The notes under the pieces were generated by a model that had not been told where the DNA came from, did not search any database, and worked only from the letters and a program-made list of their open reading frames with translations. Below, piece after piece: positions 14,333 to 20,233 of a stretch of DNA of 20,233 nt (position 1 is its first letter; each line of letters begins with the position of its first letter). Source of the stretch: a virus. The stretch lies in the IMG/VR virus record IMGVR_UViG_3300030060_000196, positions 1 to 20,233 of that record. One strand, 5' to 3'. Both the position numbers and the translations under genes were made by a program.

Positions 14333-16831
14333 ATGGCAGGTTATTCAAGACAATCCTCATCAACAATACAACCTAATGAGGTTATTAAAGCTGCACCAGT
14401 AAATGCAGAGTATAACGCAATACGAGATGCGTTTGCTTTGTCAGGTGGGCATAAACATGACGGTAGTTCAACTGAAGGTGCATACGTACCTCTCATAGCT
14501 GACACTGATGCTTTAAATAAAATAGCAGTAGATACTAGCAACAATAGGCATGGTGTGTTTGTTGAAGTTTCTTCCTCAGCAGTAGAGCAGCTTAGGTTTC
14601 AAGACGGTGTAATTGTACCTGTAACAGATAATGATATAGACTTGGGTACAAGTTCTGTAGAGTTTAAAGATTTATATCTAGATGGTACAGCTACGGTAGA
14701 TACACTTCAAGTGGATGAGAACGCTACAGTAACAGGTAATCTTTCTGTAAATGGAAACACTACACTTGGTAATGCAGCTACAGATACAGTTACGTTAACT
14801 GCTGATGTTGCTTCTGCTATTTTACCCTCTGCAGATGATACACATGACTTGGGTGCTACAGGTTCTGAGTGGCGTGATTTATACATAGATGGGCAAGCTA
14901 ACATAGATACTCTTGCTGTTGATGCAAATGCTACGGTGGCAGGTACACTTGTAGTGACAGGAGCTACGACACTAAACGGTGGTCTTGTCATGGACTCAGA
15001 TAAGTTTACCGTTGCGGATACAAGTGGTAACACTTCTATTGGGGGTACTCTTACAGTTGCAGGTGCAACTACATTAGCTGCTACATCTTTTGGTGATGCA
15101 AACATTACTAATGTAGGAGACATAGCGTTAGACAGTATTAGTGCAGATGGTAGCACAATTACTATTACTGGTAACACTACGTTTGCTGATGGCTCTTTTG
15201 ATTTTAATATAGCATCTCACGATGGTACAAATGGACTTGCTCTTGGTGGTACAGTAGTAACAGCAACTGCTGCAGAACTAAACATCATGGATGGAGTAAC
15301 TGCAACTACTGCTGAACTTAATATTATGGATGGTGTTACAGCCACTACTGCAGAGTTAAACATACTTGATGGGGTAACTTCAACAGCAGCAGAGTTAAAT
15401 ATATTAGACGGTGTTACTGCCACTGCTGCAGAGCTTAATACACTAGATGGCATTACAGCAGTTGTTGGCGAACTTAACACACTAGACTTAGGAAGCACTG
15501 CAGTTGGTACTGCTATTGCATCTAAGGCTGTAGTGTTAGACTCTAATAAAGACTACACAGGCATTCGTAACTTTACAATAACAGGCAACTTGACCGTAGG
15601 GGGTACTACCACAGTTGTAGATACTGTTACTATGAATGCACAGAATGCTGTGGTATTTGAAGGTGCTACTGCTGATGATCACGAAACTACACTTACGATT
15701 GTAGATCCTACAGCAGACCGCACAATCAACTTGCCAAATCAAAGTGGTACTATCCCTGTACTAGCTGCAGTAAGTGCCACTCAAATTAGTGCTACACCTG
15801 AAGAGCTAAACATCATGGACGGTGGCACTTCTGCCACATCAACTACACTTGCAGATGCAGATAGGGTTGTAGTTAATGATGCAGGAACTATGAAGCAGGT
15901 AGCCCTTACTGATTTTGAAACATACTTTGAATCAGCACTTGATACATTATCAAATGTAACTACAGTAGGCGCACTAAATAGCGGTAGCATCTCAAGTGGT
16001 TTTGGTGCTATAAACAATGGCTCAAGTGCTATTACTACAACAGGCACTGTAACTTATGGTAGTTTGTCAGACGGAACTATAACTATTACAGGCTTTGTTG
16101 ATGAAGACGATATGTCATCTAATAGTGCAACATTAGTTCCTACACAACAGTCAGTAGAAGCTCGTATCCAAGCTGTAAACGCAACTGCTAATAATGTAAC
16201 AGGTCTTAATGCTACAGGTGCAGAGCTTAATACTGTAGCAGATGTATCAGCAATTAGTCCTGACACTTCTACAGCAGTAGCGAACAATGATGCAATATTA
16301 ATGTTTGATAATTCAGCTACAGGATTAAAATATTTTGATGTTGATTTATTAGATACTTATTTTGCGGCTACTACAAAAACTTTAACGAACAAAACACTTA
16401 CTAGTCCTGTTGTAACAGGCTTGCATTTTAATGATGCAGGTTTTACTGTAGAAGGTTCTAGTGCTGACGGTAATGAAACTACTGTAGCTTTCACTAATCC
16501 AACTGCAGACAGAACTATTACATTTCCTGATGCTACAGGTACGGTTGCTTTACTAGCGAGTCCTACTTTTACAGGAACATTAACTGCTCCCACCATAAAT
16601 GCATCAACTGCTTTACAAATAGGTGGAGTAGCAGTAACATCTACAGCAGCAGAATTAAATATATTAGATGGTGTAACAGCAACTGCTGCAGAATTAAATA
16701 TATTAGATGGTGTAACAGCAACTGCTGCAGAATTAAATCACGTAGATGGTGTAACCTCTGCAATACAAACACAATTAGACGCTAAGGCATCAACTGGTAA
16801 GGCGATTGCAATGGCAATGGTATTTGGATAA
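14333..16831 (+). CDS. Tail fibre protein with AAELNILDGVT repeats, 832 aa
   Basis: Likely trimeric fibre attached to the tail hub. Residues 1-60 form an attachment region with GGHKHDGSS (39-47), an HxH pattern seen in fibre/collar proteins. A duplicated beta segment follows: LGTSSVEFKDLYLDGTATVD (about 104-123) and LGATGSEWRDLYIDGQANID (about 173-192), 69 residues apart. Next come tandem 13-residue units, A-T-A-A-E-L-N-I-L-D-G-V-T. Two copies of an ETT...PTADRTI...P...GT...LA segment lie at about 445-480 and 720-750. A second group of 13-residue units stands near the C-terminus, which ends STGKAIAMAMVFG. This architecture is common in marine phages. Receptor unknown; no enzymatic domain seen. 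Confidence 0.9.
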   Translation: MAGYSRQSSSTIQPNEVIKAAPVNAEYNAIRDAFALSGGHKHDGSSTEGAYVPLIADTDALNKIAVDTSNNRHGVFVEVSSSAVEQLRFQDGVIVPVTDNDIDLGTSSVEFKDLYLDGTATVDTLQVDENATVTGNLSVNGNTTLGNAATDTVTLTADVASAILPSADDTHDLGATGSEWRDLYIDGQANIDTLAVDANATVAGTLVVTGATTLNGGLVMDSDKFTVADTSGNTSIGGTLTVAGATTLAATSFGDANITNVGDIALDSISADGSTITITGNTTFADGSFDFNIASHDGTNGLALGGTVVTATAAELNIMDGVTATTAELNIMDGVTATTAELNILDGVTSTAAELNILDGVTATAAELNTLDGITAVVGELNTLDLGSTAVGTAIASKAVVLDSNKDYTGIRNFTITGNLTVGGTTTVVDTVTMNAQNAVVFEGATADDHETTLTIVDPTADRTINLPNQSGTIPVLAAVSATQISATPEELNIMDGGTSATSTTLADADRVVVNDAGTMKQVALTDFETYFESALDTLSNVTTVGALNSGSISSGFGAINNGSSAITTTGTVTYGSLSDGTITITGFVDEDDMSSNSATLVPTQQSVEARIQAVNATANNVTGLNATGAELNTVADVSAISPDTSTAVANNDAILMFDNSATGLKYFDVDLLDTYFAATTKTLTNKTLTSPVVTGLHFNDAGFTVEGSSADGNETTVAFTNPTADRTITFPDATGTVALLASPTFTGTLTAPTINASTALQIGGVAVTSTAAELNILDGVTATAAELNILDGVTATAAELNHVDGVTSAIQTQLDAKASTGKAIAMAMVFG
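15263..15487 (+). repeat. Tandem 39-bp/13-aa repeats in fibre gene, cluster 1
   Basis: Five full units starting at 15263, 15302, 15341, 15380 and 15419, plus a partial sixth at 15458. They encode variants of A-T-A-A-E-L-N-I-M/L-D-G-V-T. The protein units are almost identical but the codons have drifted, so the array is old and kept by selection at protein level. Confidence 0.9.
16640..16756 (+). repeat. Tandem 39-bp/13-aa repeats in fibre gene, cluster 2
   Basis: Three units starting at 16640, 16679 and 16718. Unlike cluster 1, units 1 and 2 and the start of unit 3 are nearly identical in DNA as well, suggesting a recent tandem duplication or gene conversion. Confidence 0.9.
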
Positions 16832-16846: not shown

Positions 16847-17209
16847 ATGGCAAATCCAAATGTAGTAGCAGTCACTAGTATTCTAGCTCAAACAGTTTTA
16901 GATGCTGATGTTGCTGCAAGCGCAGTTAGTTTACTAACTTGTGCATCAGAAAAACTATGTAAAATTAATTCGTTGGTTATAGCTAACATAGACGGCACTA
17001 ACGCTGCTGATATATCTGTGTGGATTACACGATCAAGTGTAGACTACTACATAGCTAAAGGTATTACAGTCGCAGCAGGTAGTACCTTACTTCCTATTGA
17101 TAAAAACATGGGATTATACTTAAATGAAAGCGACATACTAAAAATACAAGCAAGTGCAGCAGGAGATTTGTCTGCTGTTCTTTCATATGAAGAAATAGAT
17201 GACGCTTAA
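16847..17209 (+). CDS. Beta-rich fibre-associated protein, 120 aa
   Basis: Strand-rich, Ala/Ser-rich protein with no signal peptide: SLLTCASEKLCKINSLVIAN (about 28-47), then ISVWITRSSVDYYIAKGITV (about 56-75), GSTLLPIDKNMGLYLNESDI and LSAVLSYEEIDDA. Its layout parallels the 121-aa protein at 1927-2292: a CP/CA-containing strand, I-x-x-L-x-V-x-N, W-x-x-x-S-x-x-Y, an x-L-x-x-x-D-x-I turn and a V-L-S-x-E-E ending. I infer a paralogous small beta-sandwich. Location between two large fibre genes suggests a distal fibre or baseplate accessory. Function unknown. Confidence 0.8.
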   Translation: MANPNVVAVTSILAQTVLDADVAASAVSLLTCASEKLCKINSLVIANIDGTNAADISVWITRSSVDYYIAKGITVAAGSTLLPIDKNMGLYLNESDILKIQASAAGDLSAVLSYEEIDDA

Positions 17210-17223
17210 TAGAAAGTAGCTTA

Positions 17224-19797
17224 ATGAAAGCTTTCGGTAATATTGCAAAGGATAGCCAGGTCAGGGCAGTCGCTTCTGGTACTTTACCTAGTGGTAAACC
17301 AGTAGTTATAAACTCTGATGGGACTGTAAGTGAAGTCTCAGGAGCAGATGTGGCTTTAGGCACTGAAGGTGCTTTTAATTCAATAACCTCAAGTATGTTT
17401 GCTTCTGTTTTTGATAGCTCTAACAATAAACACATAATTGTTTATCGCACTAGCAGTAACATGAGATATGTAGTTGCAACTGTGGCGTCTGATGGTGGTG
17501 TTACTTTTGGTACTGATGCGGTTGCAGAGTCAGGTGATAATCAACAAATTAGTGCGTGTTTTGATAGCACAAACAACAGGATTGTTGTTGCCTATAGACG
17601 TGGTGCTGACAGCGATCATGGTCATGCAATTGTTGGTTCTCTGTCAGGAACGACAGTAACTTGGGGAAGTCCTACAGAATTTCAAAGCGCAGCAAAACAG
17701 ATAGATCTTGATTTTGACAGTACAGCAGGAAAAGTTGTCATTGCTTATGCAGGAACATCTGAGTATGGAACGGCAATCGTTGGAACGGTTTCTGGCACAT
17801 CTATTTCATTTGGCACTCCTGTCGTCTATGAGAGTGGTCGTGCTCAACTGAATAGAGTTGTCTACGACAGCACCAACGACAAAACAGTTATTGGATTTAT
17901 GGATCAAGATGATGGAGAATTTGGCAAAGCTGTAGTTGGAACAGTAAGCGGTACATCTATTTCTTTTGGATCAGCGGTAACATTTCATAGTGGTGAAATG
18001 AATCGTTGTGGAGGTACATTTGATAGCTCAAATGGCAAAGTAGTTTTTGCTTATGGGGATAAGGATAATAGTCAGAAAGGGACAGCAATAGTGGGGACTG
18101 TTTCTGGTACATCTATTTCATTTGGCTCACCTGTAGTCTTTGCGAGTGCAGGAACTTATGGAGAAGCCTCACCCGACAATGTTGTGTTTGATAGCAACAC
18201 TAACAAAGTTATTGTTGTCTTTCCATACACCGTAAGTGGAAGTTATTCAAATCGTGGTTTTGTGTTCTCATTAAGTGTTTCTGGTACAACGATTTCTGCT
18301 GATACAGGAACAGATTTTGCAGGAGCAACAGCGGTCTATCCTGCCATATCGTTTGACAGCAATGTAAACAAAAGTCTTATAGCTTTTGGTGATGCAGGTA
18401 ACAGTGAATACGCAACAGCAGTTTCTTTTTCACCTGCTTCCACAACTCTTACCTCAGAAAACTACATTGGTATGTCTAGTGGTGTGGCTTTTCAAACTTC
18501 AGTTACTCAGGCGTTAGGCACACCTGTTGCATATGAAGCAGATTCTGTAGAACACCAAGCTATTGCCTATGACAGCAATTCAAATAAAGTTGTTGTAGCT
18601 TATGTGGATACTGGAGACAGTAATAAAGGTAAGGCTGTTGTTGGAACAGTAGATTCTTCTGATAACTCTATAAGTTTTGGAACACCTGTTGTTTTTGAAA
18701 GTTCTAGTCAACCTAGATACTGTGCTGCAACATTTGACTCAAATTCAAATAAAGTTGTTGTAGCTTATAGTGATGGTGGTAACTCAAGTTATGGTACGGC
18801 TCTTGTCGGAACTGTTAGTGGAACGTCAATAAGTTTTGGATCAGAGGTTGTTTTTGAAAGTGCCTCAGTAGACGAAATGAATGCAACCTTTGATTCTAAT
18901 TCAAATAAAGTTGTTATAGCTTACAGGGATAAAGGAAATAGCAATCATGGAACTGCTATTGTTGGTACAGTAAGTGGGACATCCATTTCGTTTGGAACAG
19001 CAGTTGTATTTCTATCGGAAGACAGCCGTAATAATGCTATATCTTTTGATTCTACAGCTAATAAAGTTGTCATAGCTTATGCTGACAATAGTAGCACTTA
19101 TAGAGGTACTGCTATTGTTGGCACAGTTTCAGGTACTGGCATTAGCTTTGGTACTCAGGCTGTATTTGCGAATGCTTCTACAACACACATTGGTTGTGCC
19201 TATGATTCAAATTCCGATAAAACAGTTATAGCTTATGCTGATGCACAGGATGATGGGACAGCTATAGTAGCAACTGTGTCTGGAACGTCTATTTCGTTTG
19301 GAACAGCAGTTGAGTTTGATGGTGATGCATCTCTACAAAACAAGATTGTCTTTGATTCTAATATCAACAAAGTAGTAAATATGTACAGGGATGGTGGTAA
19401 TTCAAATCGTCCAACTATGATTGAGGGAACTGTCAGTGGGACATCTATCTCGTTTGGAACAGCGGTTACATTAAGCAACAGCGGTAGTAATCACTATGCA
19501 AGTGTTTTTGATACGACTAGTAAAAAGGTAATAACAGCTTATCAAGACGATACAAACACAGCAGGAACTGCTGCTGTTTTTCAGGCTTCGGGTACAATAA
19601 CCACTAGAGGACAAACAGCAAACGGTGGTAAAGCAGTAATAGATTCAACAAACACAATATCAAGAAATCAAATTGGACTTACAGCAGGACAAACTTTATA
19701 TGTGCAAACAGATGGCACATTAAGTGAAACAGCAGACGATCCCTCAGTAACAGCAGGAACTGCTATATCAGCTACGGAACTAATAGTGAAAGGTTAA
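17224..19797 (+). CDS. Propeller-like repeat protein, 857 aa, putative receptor-binding protein
   Basis: Residues 1-49 form an attachment head: AVASGTLPSGKPVVINSDGT followed by ADVALGT. Then 14 repeats of about 50 residues each follow the plan F/Y-D-S-x-x-N-K-V-V-I-A-Y-x-D, x-G-T-A-I-V-G-T-V, S-G-T-S-I-S-F-G and V-F-E-S. Seven lie in residues about 50-411 and seven in about 440-790, separated by an ENYIGMSSGVAFQ linker ending ALGTPVAY. The C-terminal module (about 795-857) contains LTAGQTLYVQTDGTLSETAD and ends AISATELIVKG. Such repeats suit seven-bladed beta-propellers that bind glycans or surface proteins; the fold and ligand are inferred. No signal peptide. The start has only a weak GAAAG site. 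Confidence 0.85.
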   Translation: MKAFGNIAKDSQVRAVASGTLPSGKPVVINSDGTVSEVSGADVALGTEGAFNSITSSMFASVFDSSNNKHIIVYRTSSNMRYVVATVASDGGVTFGTDAVAESGDNQQISACFDSTNNRIVVAYRRGADSDHGHAIVGSLSGTTVTWGSPTEFQSAAKQIDLDFDSTAGKVVIAYAGTSEYGTAIVGTVSGTSISFGTPVVYESGRAQLNRVVYDSTNDKTVIGFMDQDDGEFGKAVVGTVSGTSISFGSAVTFHSGEMNRCGGTFDSSNGKVVFAYGDKDNSQKGTAIVGTVSGTSISFGSPVVFASAGTYGEASPDNVVFDSNTNKVIVVFPYTVSGSYSNRGFVFSLSVSGTTISADTGTDFAGATAVYPAISFDSNVNKSLIAFGDAGNSEYATAVSFSPASTTLTSENYIGMSSGVAFQTSVTQALGTPVAYEADSVEHQAIAYDSNSNKVVVAYVDTGDSNKGKAVVGTVDSSDNSISFGTPVVFESSSQPRYCAATFDSNSNKVVVAYSDGGNSSYGTALVGTVSGTSISFGSEVVFESASVDEMNATFDSNSNKVVIAYRDKGNSNHGTAIVGTVSGTSISFGTAVVFLSEDSRNNAISFDSTANKVVIAYADNSSTYRGTAIVGTVSGTGISFGTQAVFANASTTHIGCAYDSNSDKTVIAYADAQDDGTAIVATVSGTSISFGTAVEFDGDASLQNKIVFDSNINKVVNMYRDGGNSNRPTMIEGTVSGTSISFGTAVTLSNSGSNHYASVFDTTSKKVITAYQDDTNTAGTAAVFQASGTITTRGQTANGGKAVIDSTNTISRNQIGLTAGQTLYVQTDGTLSETADDPSVTAGTAISATELIVKG
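17371..18456 (+). repeat. First block of seven propeller-like repeats
   Basis: Seven F/Y-DS-type units, beginning FDSSNNKHIIVY, FDSTNNRIVVAY, FDSTAGKVVIAY, YDSTNDKTVIGF, FDSSNGKVVFAY, FDSNTNKVIVVF and FDSNVNKSLIAF. The outer units are more diverged than the inner ones. Block ends where ENYIGMSSG begins. Confidence 0.85.
18541..19593 (+). repeat. Second block of seven propeller-like repeats
   Basis: Seven more units, beginning YDSNSNKVVVAY, FDSNSNKVVVAY, FDSNSNKVVIAY, FDSTANKVVIAY, YDSNSDKTVIAY, FDSNINKVVNMY and FDTTSKKVITAY. The first three units are more alike than any others in the protein. Confidence 0.85.
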
Positions 19798-19800
19798 AGA

Positions 19801-20061
19801 ATGAAAACTATCGTAGAAACATCAACTAAGTTAAGCAAGTATTTACTTGCAGATGACGTAGTAATCACAGCGACATCAGATAATATCACAGTAGGTGATC
19901 CTGCTCAGTTTATTATCGCTGATCTTAATAGTGGCAATACGACTATTACTGAGAACGTGACCAACGCACCAGAAGATTGGACAGGTAACAAGTATAAGTT
20001 AGATGGCACAACGTGGTCAGCTAATCCTGATTGGGTAGATCCGACTGAAGAAGAAGAGTAG
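19801..20061 (+). CDS. Small fibre-module protein, 86 aa
   Basis: Starts 3 bases after the previous stop, with GAAAGG near 19788-19793 as a ribosome-binding site overlapping that stop. Strand-rich N-terminus (MKTIVETSTKLSKYLLADDV), a central Gly/Thr-rich part and a C-terminus with PEDWTGNKYKLDGTTWSANP, ending in acidic residues. The W-x-G-x-K-Y-x-x-D-G-T-T-W-x-x-N-P pattern is one I associate with small proteins beside fibre genes of marine phages. A fibre tip, chaperone or attachment role is possible; none shown. Confidence 0.8.
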   Translation: MKTIVETSTKLSKYLLADDVVITATSDNITVGDPAQFIIADLNSGNTTITENVTNAPEDWTGNKYKLDGTTWSANPDWVDPTEEEE

Positions 20062-20070
20062 GACTCAATA

Positions 20071-20233
20071 ATGCGTATCATTGGTAACGATCCAAGCGTA
20101 CCAAGACAGACACAAGAAGTCGCCAGTGGTACGTTGCCAAACGGCAAGCCTGTTATTGTGAATGCTGATGGGACTGTGAGTGTTGCAGGTTTATCAACAT
20201 TAACTCAAGGCGTTGGCAGTGCAACTGTGTATG
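20071..20233 (+). CDS. 5' end of a further fibre-like gene (partial)
   Basis: ATG at 20071 with a weak AGGA site upstream; open to the window edge, 54 residues visible. Residues 17-38 (EVASGTLPNGKPVIVNADGT plus VS) match AVASGTLPSGKPVVINSDGT plus VS near the start of the 857-aa protein, including a near-identical DNA stretch GATGGGACTGTGAGTG. It is therefore a paralogue of that attachment head, so a second fibre or propeller protein probably follows beyond the window. Confidence 0.82.
   Translation, partial: MRIIGNDPSVPRQTQEVASGTLPNGKPVIVNADGTVSVAGLSTLTQGVGSATVY

Follow-up and report, generated by a model that had tools for sequence, protein, structure and literature searches.

A marine phage gene for two seven-bladed propellers predicted to occupy separate loops of one small beta domain

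The 20,233-base stretch of viral DNA analysed here (the window) contains an 857-aa reading frame with two successive blocks of similar repeats, and the question it raises is how one protein came to hold both blocks and what they might do. A preliminary description, made from the letters alone, counted exactly seven plus seven units, read them as a tandem double beta-propeller, and proposed that a gene of the form head + propeller + tail had duplicated internally to give a two-headed receptor-binding protein. The terminase of the window phage has 89% identity to that of Roseobacter phage CRP-603, and its capsid protein has up to 76% identity to those of other CRP phages. Judged from these two proteins, the window is a fragment of an HMO-2011-type phage, and the double-propeller gene is a marine phage gene. 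The gene lies directly downstream of a tail-fibre gene and the J gene. Complete cassettes of the common type have the order J-A-K-B-C, in which slots A, B and C hold three genes sharing what we call the chassis, and divergent cassettes (L143, L154, L184 and L195) likewise have three chassis genes in a row. Slot B of the window is represented by its first 54 codons, the rest of B and slot C lying beyond the contig end. The features are as follows.

14333-16831, + strand: upstream tail-fibre-like protein with TAAELN repeats and a KAIAMAMVFG end (phrog_38058, tail fiber protein)
16847-17209, + strand: protein J, 120 aa, conserved first cassette gene (cassette comparison)
17224-19797, + strand: putative double-propeller virion protein, 857 aa, chassis slot A (slot from the gene order J-A-K-B-C and the chassis tree)
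17224-17343, + strand: head (N-terminal) half of the proposed chassis, residues 1-40 (head HMM 79.6 bits, single match)
17344-18435, + strand: predicted propeller 1 (P1), closing strand and seven units, residues 41-404 (motif count, AlphaFold, structural match)
18436-18489, + strand: opening segment of the C-terminal module (around TSENYIGMSSGVAFQ), residues 405-422 (tail HMM, positions 1-21)
18490-19599, + strand: predicted propeller 2 (P2), closing strand and seven units, residues 423-792, nested in the C-terminal module (motif count, AlphaFold, structural match)
19606-19794, + strand: rest of the C-terminal module, residues 795-857 (tail HMM, positions 14-76; 90.2 bits)
19801-20061, + strand: protein K, 86 aa, conserved between slots A and B (cassette comparison)
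20071-20233, + strand: slot-B propeller gene, start only (MRIIGNDPSVPRQTQEVASGTLPNGKPVIVNADGTVS...), cut by the contig end

In HTVC033P, a pelagiphage of the same group, the relative of J is followed by Gly-rich adhesin-like proteins (gp64 and gp62; L210 7391-11466). A relative of K adjoins the propeller gene of Lentibacter phage ICBM2, where the names tail assembly chaperone and tail fiber protein come from annotation only. Elsewhere in the window, a 152-aa ORF (2440-2898), matched by eye, appears to be a relative of the ORF lying just behind slot C of the T7-like L070 (9125-9613), and is apparently another gene common to different backbones.

The 857-aa frame has 14 copies of the motif [FY]D[ST], seven at residues 63-377 and seven at 449-762; in 2000 shuffles of the protein the mean was 1.2 and the maximum 6. 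The units are spaced 50-56 residues apart, with a single exception of 72 across the linker, and a blade HMM made from the units recovers the same 7+7, in agreement with the earlier count. The similar residues said to precede the two blocks, DVALGTEGAF and TQALGTPVAY, are present as well. As read from the sequence, an extra strand precedes each block (ALGTEGAF, ALGTPVAY) and the last unit of each block is without that strand, as is usual where the N-terminus closes a ring. AlphaFold, given the full-length protein and 40 aligned sequences, modelled two separate seven-bladed propellers with pLDDT mostly >90, a typical unit having four strands; in the same model, pLDDT was <50 for the head and C-terminal chassis pieces. 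In VIA-align, both blocks (residues 57-406 and 430-792) matched solved seven-bladed propellers with Z about 29-32 over roughly 300 residues, the best matches being YncE (Z 32) and the PLL/PHL lectins (Z 29-31) at 8-11% identity, and the best Foldseek match of the protein model was Elp2, a two-propeller protein. Pfam and PHROGs scans of the 857-aa protein gave no useful match, and a sequence search of solved structures gave no relative. A single 14-blade ring or a solenoid is rejected on the AlphaFold model, with its two rings. The models thus place two independent seven-bladed propellers in one protein, as the tandem reading held, and it is plausible that such a candidate two-propeller binder takes two ligands.

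IMG/VR was scanned three times and yielded about 200 loci, some of them repeat fetches of one contig; identical proteins were counted once, and the tally is of distinct complete genes with a C-terminal module. By this tally 110 homologues have a single seven-unit block, the kind of gene (one block ending ENYIG plus LTAGQ-YVQ-DGTL) that had been proposed as the object of a search, and 54 have 7+7, a ratio that means little because sampling started from a double-propeller query. Three more short genes have fewer units by profile. Several genes with an apparent 6 or 13 units were inspected and proved to have a degenerate seventh unit that the HMM had overlooked, while apparent counts of 8 or 15 were false HMM matches in head or linker. 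Apart from overlooked degenerate units, arbitrary repeat numbers were not found among the 164 distinct complete genes and no continuous 14-unit ring was modelled, these being outcomes that the preliminary description had named as telling against it. A tblastn search of cultured phages with the 857-aa protein found ICBM2 only, and one with the tail module found one single-cell virus only; the protein was not found in the cultured HMO-2011-type members, and ICBM2 was its only match in the phage collection. The sole match among bacterial genome contigs was a remote relative (27%) on an Acidimicrobiaceae MAG contig (L213). Within a literature search that had most subscription papers and bioRxiv outside its range, the protein was not described in work on HMO-2011-type phages, metaviromic islands or domain mosaicism.

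A head profile of about 62 positions and a profile of the C-terminal module, with 76 positions, were built from single-propeller genes. P2 interrupts the C-terminal module in 49 of the 54 doubles, the start of the module lying between P1 and P2 and the rest after P2; the head module is split around P1 in five doubles, all of slot A. The window gene has its tail module once, split around P2. Its ENYIG linker corresponds to tail profile positions 1-21 and the remainder follows P2, which accounts for the likeness, remarked on earlier, between the linker and the start of a C-terminal module. Residues 1-40, 405-422 and 795-857 would then together form one small beta domain of about 115 aa, the chassis, which we consider likely as part of the whole explanation given below. 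The chassis fold was read not from the full-length window model but from a propeller-free homologue: L172 (5878-6231) has a natural 117-aa gene, between K and slot C, consisting of head and C-terminal modules without a propeller. Slot A is absent before K in L172. Prediction of the 117-aa protein with 101 aligned singles gave one domain (pLDDT 85, pTM 0.74), whose best structural matches in Foldseek (best E 1.7e-4) and VIA-align (Z 7-12 over 93-109 residues) were, with few exceptions, decoration or head-fibre proteins of phages. The top match was to Haloferax tailed virus 1 (Z 11.8), the other matches included FCWL1, XM1, Adjutor, Pam3, TW1, E217 and the phi29 gp8.5 base, and MoeA and herpesvirus capsid proteins ranked lower. 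A review gives the same membership for the beta-tulip fold, describes its decoration proteins as trimers and phi29 gp8.5 as one that aids attachment, and places the fold also in the phi29 preneck appendage (PMC7602432). Against the Pfam cement family PF09956 the chassis scored 16.3 bits (E 0.013), below the cut-off of 24, and therefore does not belong to Phage_cement by sequence; in predicted structure it resembles the beta-tulip decoration fold (Phage_cement, DUF2190-like).

The chassis model has strands at 14-19, 28-31, 37-39, 50-54, 63-67, 84-87, 102-107 and 113-115, and five of its loops carry propellers, as assigned by sequence alignment to the model. The loop after the first strand holds a propeller in the head-insert doubles, loop 40-49 is the usual propeller site (P1), and loop 55-62 is the site of the window P2. 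Loop 68-83 has a different propeller type of five repeats (L020, L066, L067), putative from sequence, with Pfam SGL above cut-off, and loop 88-101 has SGL-type repeats in L143, L146, L154 and L188 and the seven-unit type in L187. A second chassis type, with a SNLSELLPAGAG start, carries an SGL-type propeller in its last loop in L143 (1122-5616), L154 (63-6819) and L188 (265-2532), and in L143 two genes have this as their only propeller.

The explanation that we favour, and hold to be probable, is that one chassis carries two self-closing propellers in two of its loops, the chassis and its gene slot being constant and the propellers exchanged, in a form of modular adhesin display. The chassis would anchor the protein to the virion, as the trimeric decoration-protein fold suggests, and the propellers would present variable, probably glycan-binding faces for host adhesion, a double propeller doubling the binding heads per anchor. 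Within the blade, positions 17-24 and 46 to 4 vary most and positions 30-40 least; standard propeller topology, rather than coordinates, assigns the two variable stretches to the BC and DA loops on one face. At five loci (L064 5483-7627, L038 8598-10706, L190 5075-7900, L199 967-2856 and L212 5655-8942) a fibre-like N-terminus is joined to chassis + propeller, and these fusions may point to anchoring at the fibre tip. Some of the fusions are an extra gene after slot C, and no fibre N-terminus is present on the window protein chain. The anchoring site on the virion, the trimer, the ligand and adhesion itself are what we infer.

With the same anatomy, the protein might instead decorate the capsid and its propellers be capsid-surface adhesins like T4 Hoc or the phi29 head fibres, a possible reading to which we give distinctly less weight than to the favoured one. 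In structure the chassis is best matched by capsid decoration proteins (Z about 10-12), beta-tulip decoration proteins trimerise and some, e.g., phi29 gp8.5, aid attachment (PMC7602432), and the cassette is found on phages with different tail genes, which suggests a tail-independent anchor. Set against a capsid location are the position of the genes behind a tail-fibre gene, the fibre-like N-termini of the five fusion loci, the Gly-rich adhesin-like proteins in the same place in HTVC033P, and the phi29 preneck appendage, which shares the fold. A further suggestion, also tentative, is that the chassis paralogues A, B and C make one heterotrimeric beta-tulip anchor with three to six different, independently exchangeable propellers, i.e., a combinatorial adhesin, whole propellers being the mobile unit common to unrelated marine phages. 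Exactly three chassis genes occur in complete J-A-K-B-C cassettes and also in the four divergent ones, and known members of the chassis fold trimerise, but L172, without slot A before K, speaks against a strict need for all three. Surface glycans are often degraded by phage recognition proteins, and the propellers might on that ground be enzymes (a glycosidase or depolymerase) and not only binders; given that no Pfam enzyme match was found and that the best folds were YncE, lectins and WD40 proteins, we regard this as unlikely.

The slot label shows 5 changes (minimum 2, shuffled 68) on the head + tail (chassis) tree, which was built from 94 columns only, and 60 changes (shuffled 69) on the propeller tree for these genes; both are FastTree trees with many weak forks. 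By these comparisons the chassis type tracks gene slot A, B or C, and the propellers do not. Propellers of 89-96% DNA identity are shared between loops, between slots and between backbones, and the similarity stops sharply at the domain edge. The slot C propeller of L039, in the C-terminal loop, and the slot A propeller of L029, in the head loop, have 95.7% DNA identity over 1104 bp that end at the ring edges; the nested slot B propeller of L025 and the single slot C propeller of L070 have 93.4% over 1092 bp; and the nested slot C propeller of L042 and the single slot B propeller of L059 have 89%. L070 is a T7-like phage, with a T7-type fibre N-terminus and internal virion protein; L172 has a lambda-gpJ-like tail-tip protein; HMO-2011-type tail genes are present at twelve loci, and most other loci are without a backbone assignment. 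The phages appear to swap propellers like interchangeable binding heads.

The window P1 has 92% identity to the sole propeller of an L002 gene. The two DNAs match at 91.6% over window positions 17207-18484 and then at 85% over 19638-20153, and between these segments the window has about 1,150 bp (18485-19637) where L002 has about 25 bp. This alignment shows L002 to have an empty P2 site in a close relative of the window gene. The two similar blocks and the tail-start likeness of the ENYIG linker are what the internal duplication of a head + propeller + tail gene would explain, but the head profile found a second head module in none of the 54 doubles, and the tail module is split once rather than doubled. 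Compared blade by blade, P1 and P2 gave a mean score of 92.4 in register versus 74-94 at other shifts, i.e., no register signal, where a truly homologous block gave 241.7 in register. Further, among the pairs listed from a 218-block tree, P1 and P2 from the same gene were never nearest neighbours, and the nearest relatives of the window P1 and P2 differ. This part of the preliminary description did not hold up, and we now think duplication very improbable; on the evidence of the sequences, P2 is a nested insertion with a separate origin. Fusion of the neighbouring slot A and B genes through intergenic loss, which three similar genes in a row might suggest, should have left P2 preceded by a complete first tail and by a head, both of which are absent, and slots B and C are still there in complete arrays with a double A (JDKSD, JDKDD), so that we give fusion hardly any credence. 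The close relatives are all metagenomic contigs, but a mis-assembly uniting unrelated propellers has a negligible probability because the common propellers are 89-96% and not 100% identical, with boundaries at domain edges, and because the pattern recurs in different samples, with the same split positions in 54 distinct proteins from many assemblies.

In the favoured explanation of one chassis with exchangeable propellers, P1 would sit at the usual site, in the loop that joins the head half to the C-terminal half, and P2 would be nested in the next loop. The ends of a closed propeller meet, and a whole ring (about 1.1 kb) could be inserted or exchanged with the chassis undisturbed; counts of exactly seven and exactly seven plus seven would be expected because a closed ring moves whole, its two ends together. 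The chassis and gene slot (A, B or C) would stay fixed while propellers move between loops, slots and phage types. The anatomy, the counting in sevens, the nesting, the exchange and the modelled folds are what the computation shows. If the explanation is true, the family is a natural case of one small domain that takes up complete self-closing rings at five of its loops, and of a recognition domain that moves intact from loop to loop, from gene to gene and from one phage family to another. It would connect decoration folds of the capsid type with tail fibres and with lectin-like propellers, offer a concrete candidate for host-range diversification in HMO-2011-type marine phages, and provide a natural display scaffold with a known empty form.

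The predicted chassis fold is like that of the beta-tulip decoration proteins (TW1 gp56, Pam3, Adjutor, E217 gp24 and the phi29 gp8.5 base), but the descriptions of these that were consulted have no propellers, whereas the window family uses five loops as insertion sites; in addition, the window gene lies behind a fibre gene, and its sequence match is below the Pfam cut-off. Both window blocks share the seven-bladed fold of the PLL/PHL lectins and YncE-type propellers (Z 29-32), a likeness of fold only, the identity being 8-11% and the window propellers being nested in a putative virion protein. The receptor-binding protein of the phi11 host-recognition device is a phage recognition protein with a propeller, which is reportedly five-bladed and belongs to a trimer; mobile nested rings are not known in it. 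The only cultured relative found, the hypothetical protein AYP28108 of Lentibacter phage vB_LenP_ICBM2, has blade and tail-module matches and adjoins a K-like gene; unlike the window protein, it has one block, about 30% identity and a different N-terminus. Phage receptor-binding proteins have been described as domain mosaics, their recognition domains being exchanged modularly between phages (PMC10684548). The text of that paper names neither propellers nor decoration proteins, whereas in the window family it is a closed ring that appears to move, among several loops of one domain.
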